Positions 10,767-28,459 of a DNA stretch of 64,000 bases are shown piece by piece. The position numbers were made by a program, and so were the translations under genes. Numbering within the stretch: position 1 is the first letter of the stretch; every line of letters starts with the position of its first letter. The notes under the pieces are model-generated. The model saw only the letters and a program-made list of their open reading frames with translations. It had not been told where the DNA came from and searched no databases. The DNA comes from Candidatus Sumerlaeota bacterium (GTDB lineage Bacteria > Sumerlaeota > Sumerlaeia > JAFGJS01), in assembly GCA_016928995.1 (NCBI GenBank), contig JAFGJS010000025.1:1-64000 (forward strand), in the 5' to 3' direction.

Positions 10767-12830
10767 ATGACTATTACACGTGCGATGAATACCGCAAAAT
10801 ACACCGCTACATATCGCGAAATCCTCATCATGGCGGCCCTGGCGCTGGGGATCGCCACGATTCTTGTGGTCAGCAGCCACCGCCGCATCGAACGCGTCAA
10901 CAGCGACACGCTGATCATGGTTTCGTTTTACCGCGATCTGTTTGTCGATCACATTCGCATTCGCGGCTGGGAACTCGGTCCGGCGCCGTTCCTCATGCCC
11001 GACCTGCCCATTCTCTCCCTCGCCCTGGCCCTCACGTCTAACATCGGTTATGGCCTGACGCTGTATTCATTGCTGGTCTACGGCTTATTGCTGCTCAGCA
11101 TGGCCGTCTTGTTCAAACCGCCAAGCGAACAGTGGGCGCATGATAAAACCTTCGCGTGGGCCACTCTGCTGACCGGTCTGTTGCTGGCCACGCTGCTCAG
11201 CGCTGGCCGCAATAACGCGCTCGCGTTTTATCTCTTGCTCCCCTGCAACCACACCGGAGCGCTGCTCTGCGGCATATGGATTTTTCTGCTGGTCAAGCGC
11301 ATGGCTCTGCGCGGCGGAAATTGGAAAGCCATGCTTGGACTGTCGCTGCTGGTCATCGCGTCCACGTTCTCCGATCTCTGGCTGATTCCTCAATTCATCG
11401 CCCCCATCATCCTCAGCATCCTCGTCTTCTCCGCGCTGCGCTATATCCGCTGGCCCCTCGCGCTGGGTCTGAGCGTCAACATCGCGCTCAGCGCGGCTCT
11501 CGGCAAATACCTGATCCGCGAAATGCGAAAATATGGAATTTTCAACATCCCCCGCTCACGCGTAAAGGAATCCGAGGAATACCTGCATGCCTACCTCCGC
11601 GATTTGAGCCATATCGTCCAACACCAGCCGCTGCTGTTCGCACTGATCGCGATTTTCATCATCCTGACGCTCGCATTCTTCTGGAGCAAACGCAAAGAAC
11701 TGCTGCGCCCCAATGAGCGCTCCGCAGAAACGCGAGACGAGGATTTCAATCTGCGCTTCAGCCTGTTCTTCATCCTCATCGCATCGCTCGCCTCTCTCGC
11801 CGCCCCCATCGCCTTGAAAAAATGGGGCAGCATGGAAAACATCCGCTATCTGCTTCCCTTTTTCGCCTTGCCGCCGCTGGGGCTGGGCGCCCTGCTGGCG
11901 CACTCCCTGCGAGCATGGCCCGCCAAACGCCTGTGGATCGCCGGAACCATGCTGACAGCCGTCTGCCTGGGCTTCAGTTCTCACAACATTAAATACTTCC
12001 GCCGCTCAGACTTGGCGCTCCCCTACCGCGAATCATTCCGGAAAATGGAGCGGCACCTCGCCGGACGGAACATGCTGTACGGCTACGGCAACTACTGGTA
12101 CGCCCGGCTGCTCACTCTCGAATCGCGCCGCGGTCTGCAAATCAACGAGATTCACCCCGACGTATACATGAATCAATGGATGAACAATCCCAATCGCTAT
12201 TTCGGCTTGCCCGGCTCGAATCATGGCGAATATCCGGCGTATACTTTCATCCTGATGAACGGCATCGAAAGCCCACGCGTGCTCGCTCAATTCGGCGAAC
12301 CGGCGCAGAAACTGCGTTTCGAGGAAAACGACGAAGCGTTGGAAGTCTGGATCTACAACCGGCCGCAGGACGTCAAGTTCCGCAACTTCTGCCGCACAGC
12401 GGCTTTTTTCCGCGCCTTCCGCCGGCCGGAATCGAAACCGGTCGTTTACAGTGATTTGGCGCAATACATCGCCGACGGCACGTATTGGGAAGACAGCGAC
12501 CTCTTCCCCGTGCCGGCAGATTTGACGCTCGAAGTGAAATACGATCAGCCGCTCAGCGGGGACGTGCTGGAAATTTCGGCCGACGCTAATGACAAATATC
12601 ATGTGACGCTGCTCAGCGAAGGAGAAACCATCGGCGAACTGGATCTGCCGCCCATGCTCGGAGGCAATATGCGCGCACGGTTTCTGCCCTTGCCGTCCGA
12701 AGCCGCCAACCGGCCCATCGACACGATCCAACTGAGACCGGACAATGACGCCGCGCCATTCCTTCTGGGCCATCTGGCGCTCTACAAGGACCCTTCGCCG
12801 CCGGAAGCGAAGGCGACGCATGAAAGATAG
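10767..12830 (+). CDS. Polytopic integral membrane protein, function unknown
   Basis: Multiple hydrophobic segments in the N-terminal about 420 aa, then a soluble C-terminal domain. Confidence 0.7.
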   Translation: MTITRAMNTAKYTATYREILIMAALALGIATILVVSSHRRIERVNSDTLIMVSFYRDLFVDHIRIRGWELGPAPFLMPDLPILSLALALTSNIGYGLTLYSLLVYGLLLLSMAVLFKPPSEQWAHDKTFAWATLLTGLLLATLLSAGRNNALAFYLLLPCNHTGALLCGIWIFLLVKRMALRGGNWKAMLGLSLLVIASTFSDLWLIPQFIAPIILSILVFSALRYIRWPLALGLSVNIALSAALGKYLIREMRKYGIFNIPRSRVKESEEYLHAYLRDLSHIVQHQPLLFALIAIFIILTLAFFWSKRKELLRPNERSAETRDEDFNLRFSLFFILIASLASLAAPIALKKWGSMENIRYLLPFFALPPLGLGALLAHSLRAWPAKRLWIAGTMLTAVCLGFSSHNIKYFRRSDLALPYRESFRKMERHLAGRNMLYGYGNYWYARLLTLESRRGLQINEIHPDVYMNQWMNNPNRYFGLPGSNHGEYPAYTFILMNGIESPRVLAQFGEPAQKLRFEENDEALEVWIYNRPQDVKFRNFCRTAAFFRAFRRPESKPVVYSDLAQYIADGTYWEDSDLFPVPADLTLEVKYDQPLSGDVLEISADANDKYHVTLLSEGETIGELDLPPMLGGNMRARFLPLPSEAANRPIDTIQLRPDNDAAPFLLGHLALYKDPSPPEAKATHER

Positions 12831-12869
12831 CGGCGCAACGAGTCATTATCGCCATCTTATTTTTTCTTG

Positions 12870-12960
12870 CTCTTGCTCTCGCTCTTGCTCTGGCTCATAC
12901 TCAATCTCTGACGTAATTTAAGAGCGAGATTGAGAGCAAGAGCAAGAGCGAGAGCAAGAG
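12870..12960. repeat. Hexanucleotide-rich inverted repeat with perfect 22-bp arms
   Basis: CTCTTGCTCTCGCTCTTGCTCT (12870-12891) and AGAGCAAGAGCGAGAGCAAGAG (12939-12960). Confidence 0.9.
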
Positions 12961-12966
12961 TATAAT
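12961..12966 (+). promoter_or_regulatory. Candidate -10 box TATAAT immediately after the repeat arm
   Basis: TATAAT located 16 nt before the predicted ATG at 12983; any -35 would lie inside the repeat arm. Confidence 0.35.
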
Positions 12967-12982
12967 AGAAAGCATATCACCC

Positions 12983-15631
12983 ATGCTCTGGGAAGCGCGG
13001 CTGCATGCGGATCGCCCTTCGATCCGCCGTCATCAAACCTACCTGCGGTTGGAATTCCGCGCGGAGGATGGATCGGCGTTTGCCAGCAACTCCGTCGAGG
13101 CCGAACAGGCGCGGAAAATCTGGAGCGCCCTCGAAGGCGGACTGGAACGCAACTATCAGCTGCGCTTGACCATCCTGAAAAACCGCATGGCGCACGATCT
13201 CGAAGATTGGTTCCACGCCTTCTTCCCCAACCCCGGCGGATACGGCGAGGCCTTCGCCCGGCTCTTCGAAGAGACCGGACACACCATCCTCTTCAGCGTG
13301 GACGCGCCGGAATGGCAGTGGTTCCCGCTCGAAGCGTTTTATTTTAATCAACAATTCCTGGCCTTGCGCCATTGCGTGATTCGCCGCACCGGCTCCACGG
13401 AATGCCACGCGCCTCAAGCCGGTCAATCCTTCGCCGCACTCACCGGCGCCGCCAAGCTCGGCTCCGGCGAATGGGCTGACGCCTCCCGTCTGCTCGCTTC
13501 GACCCGCCGCGCGGAAGACCGCATGCTGGCCGCCGAATTGCAACCTCGCCCTCAAAACCCCTTTCAAGCCGATCACATCTATTACATTGGCCATCATGAA
13601 ATCGGCAAAGGGTTGGCTCTGCAAACGGACGATGAAAATGGCGATTCCACATGGTTCTCCGCGAATCAACTGCAAACGAACGAGGAGCCGCCCGCCTCTG
13701 TTTTTCTGAACGCCTGCCACAGCGCCGCGGCATACACTGAATCCACTGACGCAGATTCCAGGGACGAACCATTCGCCACTTGGGCCGCGCAACGCCAGGC
13801 GCCGCTGTTCATCGGCCACGCCGGGCGCATCGCCCCGGAATTCGCCGCGAGCCTGGCCGACCGCTTTTACGATGCCTGGCTTGGCCGGCGCCAGTCCGCT
13901 CCGGAAGCATGGCGGCAAGCGCTCGGTTCGCAAACCTCGCTGCAAATGCAGGACGGCTCCGCCGCGCTGATCGGCTGCCGTTTTTATGCCGCACATCCCG
14001 CGTTCAAAATCAACGCGAAACAGCAAAACGAATCGCAGGCTCAACAGACAGCAGGTTCGACGGCTTCAACCCTTAGCGCCCGTCAAGCCTCGCTGCGCCT
14101 CGCGCTTCGAGCCGCAGTCGCCTTGCTCCTGGGGCTGATCCTGATCTTTCTCTTTTTCAAAAGCCGCGACACCCCATTCATGACACCCATGTCCCAGCCC
14201 CGCATGGTTTTGCGCGGCAACGTGCTCTATTCCACAAAGCCCTGGATGATCACGAACAAAGGAACGCCGGTTTCGCTCTTGCCGGTAAAATACGAGGACC
14301 AGGTGACAACCATCGTGCTGGAGCAGGACGTTCAGATCGCCCATCAATCAACGCTGAACATACCCGCCGGGCTGGACATCATCATCGCGCCCAAGCGCCG
14401 CATCATCTGCCACGGACGCCTTGAGGCATATGGCGAGGTGAACGCGCCGATCCGCTTCCTGGCGCGCGATGCCGCCGAAGCATCCCGCTGGGGCGGCATC
14501 TTCATCGGACCCAAAACGTATCAAGACCTCAGCCCTTTCGCCAGTTTCTCCTACTGCGAATTCAGCGGCGGAGGCGGCGTGGCAATTTCGCATCGCACCC
14601 AGCCGGATCCGCAGCTCGGGCAAAACTGGTTTGAGTACGACCAGATCGACATCCCGCCGTTTGGCCAAGACGTCGCCGTGCCCGCGCAAAGTCATCGCGG
14701 AGGCGCGATCTTCGCCTGGCGCGCCGCCCCGGAATTCTACAACTGCCGCTTTGAAAACAACAGCGCGGCTTACGGCGGCGCGGTCTATCTGCGCAACACC
14801 GGCTTCGGCGCCGTCATGTCCGACTGCGTCTTTGAAAACAACAAAAGCCAGATAGTCGGAGGCGCGCTGTTTCTACTCGGCGCCATGTTCGAGGCAGACG
14901 AACTGCATTTCACGAACAACCGCACTGGCCAGGCCGGCGGCGCCATCTGCGTCTTCCGCGACTCCAGCCTGACTCTCAGGCACTCAGCATTCATCAATAA
15001 CCGTTCCGGCATCGCAGGCGGCGGCATCTACTTCTACACCAAGAAAGGCAGCGCTCAACGGGAGAACTGCGAACATACGCTGGAGCAGTTGGAGTTTTAC
15101 GGCAACACCGCCGGACGCGACGGCGCAGGCATCAGTTACGACGGCGACAACGGCGACTTGAAAGCCAAGAATCTCATTTTCAAAGGGAACCGCCTGATCG
15201 GCCAGGCCACGGAAGGAATCCCCAATCCCGCCGACGAGCAGAACAAGGAAGGATGCGCCCTGTTCTTCAATCCGGAAAACGACAATCCTCAGGAACCGCT
15301 GCATGTCGAGTTCTCCTCGATCATCGCCCGGGGCAACATCATCGTCTGGCGCGAACATTACAATCACGACGGACAGACGATCCAGGCGTCCGGCAGCGCC
15401 GCGTACTTCGGCCCATGCATGGACGTCCGCTTGAACCTCGCGCAATGGACGGTGAGCGACAACATGGGGTATAATTCCTGCACGCCGATCGGCTACGACG
15501 AACGCATGGAGGGCGCCTCGCTCGAAGCGATTGAGCGCATCACGCGAACCTTGAATCCCGCGGCCAATCCCAACCGCAAAATCCCCCCCGAAGAAGCGGA
15601 ACAAATCGCGCGTAATATCATGACTCAATAA
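12983..15631 (+). CDS. Predicted CHAT-like (caspase-type) protease domain - TM helix - parallel beta-helix (PMP-like GGAI/FENN repeats)
   Basis: IYYIGHHEIGKGLALQ...ASVFLNACHSAAAY (candidate His204/205 and Cys245); TM LALRAAVALLLGLILIFLFF; repeats GGAIFAWRAAPEFYNCRFENNSAAYGGAVYLRN..CVFENNKSQIVGGALFLL. Confidence 0.65.
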   Translation: MLWEARLHADRPSIRRHQTYLRLEFRAEDGSAFASNSVEAEQARKIWSALEGGLERNYQLRLTILKNRMAHDLEDWFHAFFPNPGGYGEAFARLFEETGHTILFSVDAPEWQWFPLEAFYFNQQFLALRHCVIRRTGSTECHAPQAGQSFAALTGAAKLGSGEWADASRLLASTRRAEDRMLAAELQPRPQNPFQADHIYYIGHHEIGKGLALQTDDENGDSTWFSANQLQTNEEPPASVFLNACHSAAAYTESTDADSRDEPFATWAAQRQAPLFIGHAGRIAPEFAASLADRFYDAWLGRRQSAPEAWRQALGSQTSLQMQDGSAALIGCRFYAAHPAFKINAKQQNESQAQQTAGSTASTLSARQASLRLALRAAVALLLGLILIFLFFKSRDTPFMTPMSQPRMVLRGNVLYSTKPWMITNKGTPVSLLPVKYEDQVTTIVLEQDVQIAHQSTLNIPAGLDIIIAPKRRIICHGRLEAYGEVNAPIRFLARDAAEASRWGGIFIGPKTYQDLSPFASFSYCEFSGGGGVAISHRTQPDPQLGQNWFEYDQIDIPPFGQDVAVPAQSHRGGAIFAWRAAPEFYNCRFENNSAAYGGAVYLRNTGFGAVMSDCVFENNKSQIVGGALFLLGAMFEADELHFTNNRTGQAGGAICVFRDSSLTLRHSAFINNRSGIAGGGIYFYTKKGSAQRENCEHTLEQLEFYGNTAGRDGAGISYDGDNGDLKAKNLIFKGNRLIGQATEGIPNPADEQNKEGCALFFNPENDNPQEPLHVEFSSIIARGNIIVWREHYNHDGQTIQASGSAAYFGPCMDVRLNLAQWTVSDNMGYNSCTPIGYDERMEGASLEAIERITRTLNPAANPNRKIPPEEAEQIARNIMTQ

Positions 15632-27052: not shown

Positions 27053-28459
27053 TCAGTATAGCAGGAACATGACTTGATCAACCTTGGTGGGCAGCGGGGA
27101 GTATTCATAGGCTCCCAGGTCGACGATAGAGCCGATGACACGGGGATTGCCTTCGATATCCGTATGCGCCAGGCCGATGTTCGTGCCGGCGTCGATGGCC
27201 GGTGAGCCTGCGCGCAAGTGGAAGTCATTGCCGTATGGATCGGCGATGACCGCTTCGAGATCATCCAGAATGAGATTCGAATCCACGGTGGGCGTGCCGG
27301 AGTCTGCATTGATCGAAATACTGTGCGCGAGGTTGTTGCGCACGACATTGCCGTAGCCGCCGGTTCCGTCCTTGTGCGTGGTCACCATGATCCAGGCAGG
27401 ACCGGGGCGGCCGTCGTAGATGTCGGCGACGGTGTTGTTTTGGATGCGGCAGTTGCGCGCGCCGTACATGGAGATGCCGTGCCAGTGGTTCACGACGACG
27501 AGATTGTTCTCGATGATCCAGTCGGTGTAGAATCCGTCGAAGAGCCCAATGCCCTGAAAGGTTGAGATCAGGGCGGGATTGGGGTGGTTGAAGTCGTGAA
27601 AAAATTTATTTCCACGCAGAACGACGCCTTTGACTTCGCCGGTGGCTTCGTCGGTGGCCCAGCTTTGAAAGCCGTCGTCGTGGTTTTCGTTCACATCGAA
27701 GGCATTGGCGACGAAGTTGTTTTCAAAGAGTCCGTAGTCGCCGAGTCCGCGCATGGCGTCGCCGGAGAAATTGATGATGCGGTTCTTCGCGACAACGCAG
27801 TGATCGCCGCTCACCGAGATGCCGAAGTTGATATTGACGAGGCGGTTGTTGCGGATTTCGCAATAGTCGCCGGAGACGGAGATGGCGCTGGGGGCGCGAT
27901 CGAGCCAGTCTTGCGCGGTCCAGGCGGATGCGTCTTCCACGCTGAAAAGATTGGAATCTTCGAGGGTGATATAGGAACTGGGGCCCCTCCAGTTGTGGGT
28001 TTCGATGTAGAAAAGACGCGTTGTGGTGTATTCCGGCGCATAGGACGGGCTGATGGAGATTCCTTGAAAACGCCATCGTTCGGAGGCGCGGACGTTGATG
28101 TTGCCGAAGCAGGGCGTTTGAAGGGCGCCGGCTTTGACCGTGATGGTGTCCGTGTTGAGGTATGCCTGGATCAGCACTTCGCCATGATAGCCGGACATCA
28201 GAATGATTTCGTCGCCAGCCTTGATCGGGGCGCCTTCGTTTCTGATCACTCTGCCGGTGGCTTCGTACCAGGGGAAGGTGTTCCAGGTTTCCGATTCGAT
28301 CAGGTTCGAATCAACGACTTCCTGAAACGTTCGCCAGGGAGTTTGGTGGGAGCCGTCGCCTTCGGCGCTGCCGTTGATCGGATCGACGTAAAACGTGGCT
28401 GCGGCAGCCGTTCCGAGGCTGGCAAGAAAAATCCCCAATATCAGCATGAAACGCAACAT
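27053..28459 (-). CDS. Secreted right-handed parallel beta-helix protein
   Basis: Signal peptide; ATFYVDPINGSAEGDGS..PWRTFQEV; repeated CEIRNNRLVNINFGISVSGDHCVVAKNRI, CRIQNNTVADI rungs. Confidence 0.8.
   Translation of the reverse strand: MLRFMLILGIFLASLGTAAAATFYVDPINGSAEGDGSHQTPWRTFQEVVDSNLIESETWNTFPWYEATGRVIRNEGAPIKAGDEIILMSGYHGEVLIQAYLNTDTITVKAGALQTPCFGNINVRASERWRFQGISISPSYAPEYTTTRLFYIETHNWRGPSSYITLEDSNLFSVEDASAWTAQDWLDRAPSAISVSGDYCEIRNNRLVNINFGISVSGDHCVVAKNRIINFSGDAMRGLGDYGLFENNFVANAFDVNENHDDGFQSWATDEATGEVKGVVLRGNKFFHDFNHPNPALISTFQGIGLFDGFYTDWIIENNLVVVNHWHGISMYGARNCRIQNNTVADIYDGRPGPAWIMVTTHKDGTGGYGNVVRNNLAHSISINADSGTPTVDSNLILDDLEAVIADPYGNDFHLRAGSPAIDAGTNIGLAHTDIEGNPRVIGSIVDLGAYEYSPLPTKVDQVMFLLY

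Follow-up and report, generated by a model that had tools for sequence, protein, structure and literature searches.

A known membrane-bound CHAT protein is HetF of Anabaena/Nostoc, whose role is in heterocyst development and division. HetF is membrane-localised and consists of a CHAT part (amino acids 1-555 were used as such), one transmembrane (TM) segment and a TPR domain, and it loses its function when the putative active site is mutated (PMC8406250). A related arrangement was reported in a 2012 survey, namely a metacaspase–CHASE2 protein of Trichodesmium with an external receptor domain and the protease in the cytoplasm (PMC3501461). CHAT proteases also take part in CRISPR-linked immunity, as in Craspase (PMC9729208) and SAVED-CHAT (PMC11417357), and CHAT is further found in a putative antigen sensor that is diversified by a DGR (PMC10907252).

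The window analysed here is a stretch of 64,000 nucleotides from a Candidatus Sumerlaeota genome (contig JAFGJS010000025.1, positions 1 to 64,000). It contains a gene whose product looks like a receptor-protease, with a CHAT domain, a TM helix and a β-helix in one chain (Table 1). A preliminary description made from the sequence alone had proposed this three-part layout, and all three parts are indeed present in the ORF. The reading frame is continuous across them. Third-position GC lies at 0.71-0.78 for the CHAT, β-helix and C-terminal parts, similar to the adjoining genes, and at 0.63 for the 163-nt piece that holds the linker and TM helix. Since the frame is unbroken and third-position GC matches that of the neighbours, the fusion is probably no artefact of assembly, and we rejected a chimeric assembly.

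Table 1. Coordinates of the features of the CHAT–TM–β-helix gene and its upstream region, in positions of the window
Feature	Residues	Coordinates	Strand	Basis
Long hairpin between two genes just upstream, CTCTTG/CTTGCT-type hexamers		12870..12960 (wider bounds 12862-12966)	.	Inverted repeat
Full ORF, CHAT–TM–β-helix protein		12983..15631	+	882 aa, intact
CHAT protease domain	23-313	13049..13921	+	Pfam CHAT and CHAT profile built without the query
Candidate catalytic His204	204	13592..13594	+	Aligned column is H in 38/39 other CHATs
Candidate catalytic Cys245	245	13715..13717	+	Aligned column is C in 37/39 other CHATs
Polar, Arg-containing linker before the TM helix	about 346-372	14018..14098	+	Sequence
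Single transmembrane helix	373-391	14099..14155	+	Kyte-Doolittle mean 2.71 over 19 residues
Right-handed β-helix, GGAI/FENN PMP-like rungs	about 522-740	14546..15202	+	Pfam Beta_helix and Chlam_PMP

The assignment of the N-terminal part to the CHAT family (PF12770), with a putative His/Cys pair, is supported by several comparisons. When residues 1-346 were used as the query, Pfam CHAT matched residues 175-314 with 27.9 bits (the cut-off is 24), and the score for the full 882-aa protein was 24.6 bits. A CHAT profile made from 39 proteins, with the query left out, scored 58.6 bits, although there is a mild circularity in this value in that the 39 proteins had been picked by a profile that included the query. 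The same profile reported 0 of 2000 shuffled copies, and all 41 other ORFs in the scanned CHAT set match Pfam CHAT independently. CHAT identity, as initially described, was thus upheld, but the domain extends over the range given in Table 1 rather than over residues 195-330. His204 or His205, together with Cys245, had been suggested as catalytic, and a lack of conservation of these residues in homologues had been set beforehand as refuting. This test did not refute the proposal: the column of His204 is H in 38 of 39 other CHATs and that of Cys245 is C in 37 of 39, and both are nearly invariant in A3. His204 is the residue that occupies the catalytic-His column, and His205 stands at the usual Gly of ‘GHG’. 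P115 and E117 correspond to the conserved P.E of ‘PWE’ (35/39 and 34/39 other CHATs, respectively). Among solved structures, the profile that included the query matched SAVED-CHAT (8tl0) best, with an E-value of 1.7e-12, and the query alone matched no CHAT structure. An AlphaFold model of the CHAT part alone, made without an alignment, had a pLDDT of 35, too low for use.

For the other end of the protein, the proposal was that the C-terminal 500 or so amino acids form a β-helix. The PMP-like fold is borne out, but the recognisable part is smaller. Pfam Chlam_PMP (PF02415, 2.3e-11) and Beta_helix (1e-10) match at about residues 522-690, and rungs continue to about residue 740. Six GG[AG][IVL] motifs occur after residue 400, against 0.15 expected (5000 shuffles, in which the maximum was 3). 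The GG-type motifs are at residues 530, 573, 598, 626, 652 and 679, with a GAGI at 714, and FxxN turns come after the PMP rungs, at residues 590, 617, 643, 670, 705 and 733. The β-helix modelled alone by AlphaFold had a pLDDT of 40, again too low for use, and a Foldseek search with this model gave no significant match. A family search found no autotransporter family, sorting signal or outer-membrane anchor beyond the β-helix. Chlamydial Pmp proteins share the GGAI/FxxN β-helix repeats (PF02415) with our protein, which, in contrast to them, has neither a signal peptide nor an autotransporter barrel, and instead has a TM helix in mid-protein and an attached protease.

Among the other PMP-type β-helix proteins of this genome, two were read from the N-terminus onwards and both have a signal peptide, which argues that the PMP-type fold is extracytoplasmic in this organism. 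One of the two is a 1743-aa secreted C25 (gingipain-type) protease (L074:1577-6805, on G000:C84) composed of a propeptide, a PMP-type β-helix and fn3, so that proteases of the caspase fold (clan CD) are paired with a PMP-type fold twice. A second β-helix protein (NosD/Beta_helix) lies in the same window, at positions 27053-28459 on the reverse strand.

We did not find the complete architecture elsewhere. With the full protein as the query, there was no protein of the same architecture in 61 genomes and no relative in IMG/VR, and the CHAT and TM parts together had no relative in 386 genomes at an E-value of 1e-4, or among plasmids; these single-sequence searches are insensitive, given that the latter query missed even other CHATs of its own class. 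Two further phyla (5 and 195 genomes) likewise yielded no instance of this architecture, and matches in GTDB contigs were confined to the β-helix, with no relative of the whole architecture. One weak match (L090) was set aside because it resembles a frame on the antisense strand of a gene with high GC. The gene studied here is the only CHAT gene found in its genome, and CHAT is present in 19 of 40 genomes of the phylum; those that we read comprise TPR-CHATs, N-terminal CHATs with or without an ATPase, and short forms. Another genome of the class has a short, separate CHAT-like ORF of about 300 aa, just under the Pfam cut-off (L045, on G003:C69).

We also searched 376 genomes with a CHAT profile and read the ORFs of 40 regions, which gave 42 CHAT ORFs. 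In four of these, the CHAT domain is followed by TM segments, and none has a detectable β-helix of the type found here. L128 is a CHAT–TM protein whose C-terminal part is TPR-like by eye, with no Pfam TPR match, and so has a HetF-like layout. L134 (3216-6131, reverse strand) has the order guanylate cyclase–CHAT–TM–TPR/CsgG/LpoB-like, so that one chain carries both a nucleotide cyclase and a caspase-fold protease. L158 is CHAT–TM–FlgT_C-like, and in L159 CHAT is followed by several TM segments. L134 and L158 resemble our protein in that CHAT and one TM helix are followed by a periplasmic-type domain, but their outer domains are different ones, without a β-helix, and L134 has the cyclase in addition.

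The described systems can be compared in the same way. HetF shares with our protein an N-terminal CHAT, one TM segment and a C-terminal repeat domain, but this last domain is TPR in HetF, whereas our protein has a β-helix in that place and no TPR match. In the metacaspase–CHASE2 protein, as in the layout predicted for ours, a caspase-fold protease is inside and a receptor domain is predicted outside; however, the protease is of the C14 type rather than CHAT, four TM helices surround CHASE2, and there is no β-helix. With the TPR-CHAT of Craspase and with SAVED-CHAT, our protein has the protease family in common, but those proteins are CRISPR-linked and have other sensor domains, without a TM helix or β-helix. 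With regard to the traits of Craspase (Csx29), the protein has no TPR–CHAT fusion, and there is no type III-E CRISPR system among the assigned nearby genes. The initial impression that the three-part architecture is uncharacterised therefore holds for the β-helix version only, because HetF (PMC8406250) is a known case of CHAT–TM–X. Nor is the receptor-protease idea new, because of the HetF layout and the metacaspase–CHASE2 protein of 2012. We found no record of a CHAT–β-helix pairing in the limited body of literature that was searched. Membrane-bound CHAT is thus already known, and it is the β-helix outer part that appears to be new.

A lone hydrophobic helix had been noted at about positions 14098-14160, and residues 373-391 are the only segment of such hydropathy in the protein; in 2000 shuffles of the protein the maximum hydropathy had a mean of 1.53 and a largest value of 2.91 (versus 2.71 observed). 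The hydropathy scan found no N-terminal hydrophobic stretch or signal peptide. In the 15-residue flanks of the TM helix, the net charge is +2 on the CHAT side and +1 on the β-helix side. The CsgG/LpoB-like and FlgT_C-like domains that follow the TM helix in L134 and L158 fit an outside placement of the domain after the TM. The N-inside orientation is likelier, given this weak bias in charge, the analogous proteins and the kind of domain at the C-terminus; we infer from it a cytoplasmic CHAT domain and a periplasmic β-helix.

Those nearby genes that could be assigned have housekeeping roles. The neighbours encode a sugar-nucleotide epimerase, a PilT-like ATPase, mannose-6-phosphate isomerase, MurB, an HTH protein, an unassigned hydrophobic protein, PPIC/SurA-like foldases, a rhodanese, PdxA, NadC and RtcB. 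No candidate for a substrate gene was seen near the CHAT gene. Directly upstream (10767-12830, forward strand) is a gene for a hydrophobic protein of 687 aa, which probably crosses the membrane several times and to which Pfam, NCBIfam and PADLOC gave no match. The intergenic hairpin is an inverted repeat of 40 nt (83%) with a folding energy of -64.3 kcal/mol (z -8.95). We considered whether it is specific to the CHAT gene and rejected this, as the hairpin is a member of a genome-wide repeat family: its unit has 208 matches in the genome, versus 32 for the reversed control, and two copies often face each other across some tens of bases. The family possibly represents terminators, leader structures or a repeat element.

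We consider it fairly probable that the protein is a single-pass receptor-protease of the inner membrane, in which a periplasmic β-helix controls a cytoplasmic CHAT domain. The individual steps are conjectural throughout. The β-helix might bind a ligand of the envelope, the surface or a neighbouring cell, which could be a polysaccharide or a protein. Upon binding, the protein would cluster or rearrange, such that CHAT domains are brought together, and this proximity would activate the protease against one or a few substrates in the cytoplasm or close to the membrane, such as a regulatory protein, a division protein or the precursor of a toxin. As to the output, control of the envelope, division or development, as for HetF, is at least as likely as phage defence, and we favour it, with low confidence, because the neighbours are housekeeping genes and PADLOC found no match. 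The defence-system framing that had accompanied the first description is, for the same two reasons, unsupported.

A defensive role would take the form of an abortive-infection receptor, in which the β-helix detects the contact of a phage with the envelope and the CHAT protease brings about cell death. Such a role has precedents in the CHAT proteins of CRISPR-linked immunity (PMC9729208, PMC11417357) and in the DGR-diversified putative antigen sensor (PMC10907252), but we regard it as improbable, since the flanking genes are murB, PPIC/SurA-like, pdxA, nadC and rtcB, since PADLOC matched neither the full protein nor the CHAT part up to an E-value of 1, nor the upstream neighbour, and since this is a lone gene, with no ATPase, adaptor or nuclease partner seen at the locus. 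It is also quite improbable that the CHAT domain is an inactive pseudoprotease or structural scaffold that serves as a protein-binding platform. The domain is divergent, with a weak Pfam score and replacements at Tyr200 (usually His), Leu116 (usually the Trp of PWE) and His205 (usually Gly), which would agree with a loss of activity; both catalytic residues are nevertheless retained.

Finally, the protease might serve controlled shedding, by cutting itself or the linker or TM of its own or a neighbouring molecule, with the β-helix as an adhesin that is released or retained. The long low-complexity linker ahead of the TM helix would suit this, as would the occurrence of the C25 gingipain-type secreted protease–PMP-type β-helix fusion in the same genome. 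However, the linker presumably faces the cytoplasm, and after a cut at that point the β-helix would still be held by its TM helix; nor was any sorting signal or outer-membrane anchor seen after the β-helix. We therefore consider shedding, too, to be quite doubtful. A more far-reaching version of the receptor-protease reading, which we put forward only tentatively and think rather unlikely, is a system resembling death receptors, in which a PMP-type β-helix on the surface or in the periplasm would act directly, through the inner membrane, as the gate of a cytoplasmic CHAT protease. The protein would then belong to a modular class of membrane-spanning CHAT receptors whose outer domains can be exchanged (TPR, CsgG/LpoB-like, FlgT-like and β-helix).

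If the topology holds, the receptor-protease would provide a single-chain model for how a signal from outside controls a caspase-like protease within a bacterium, and one that offers a testable residue, Cys245, and a defined outer domain. It would also place HetF and further CHAT–TM–outer-domain proteins together in one receptor-like class, and give context to the membrane anchor of HetF.
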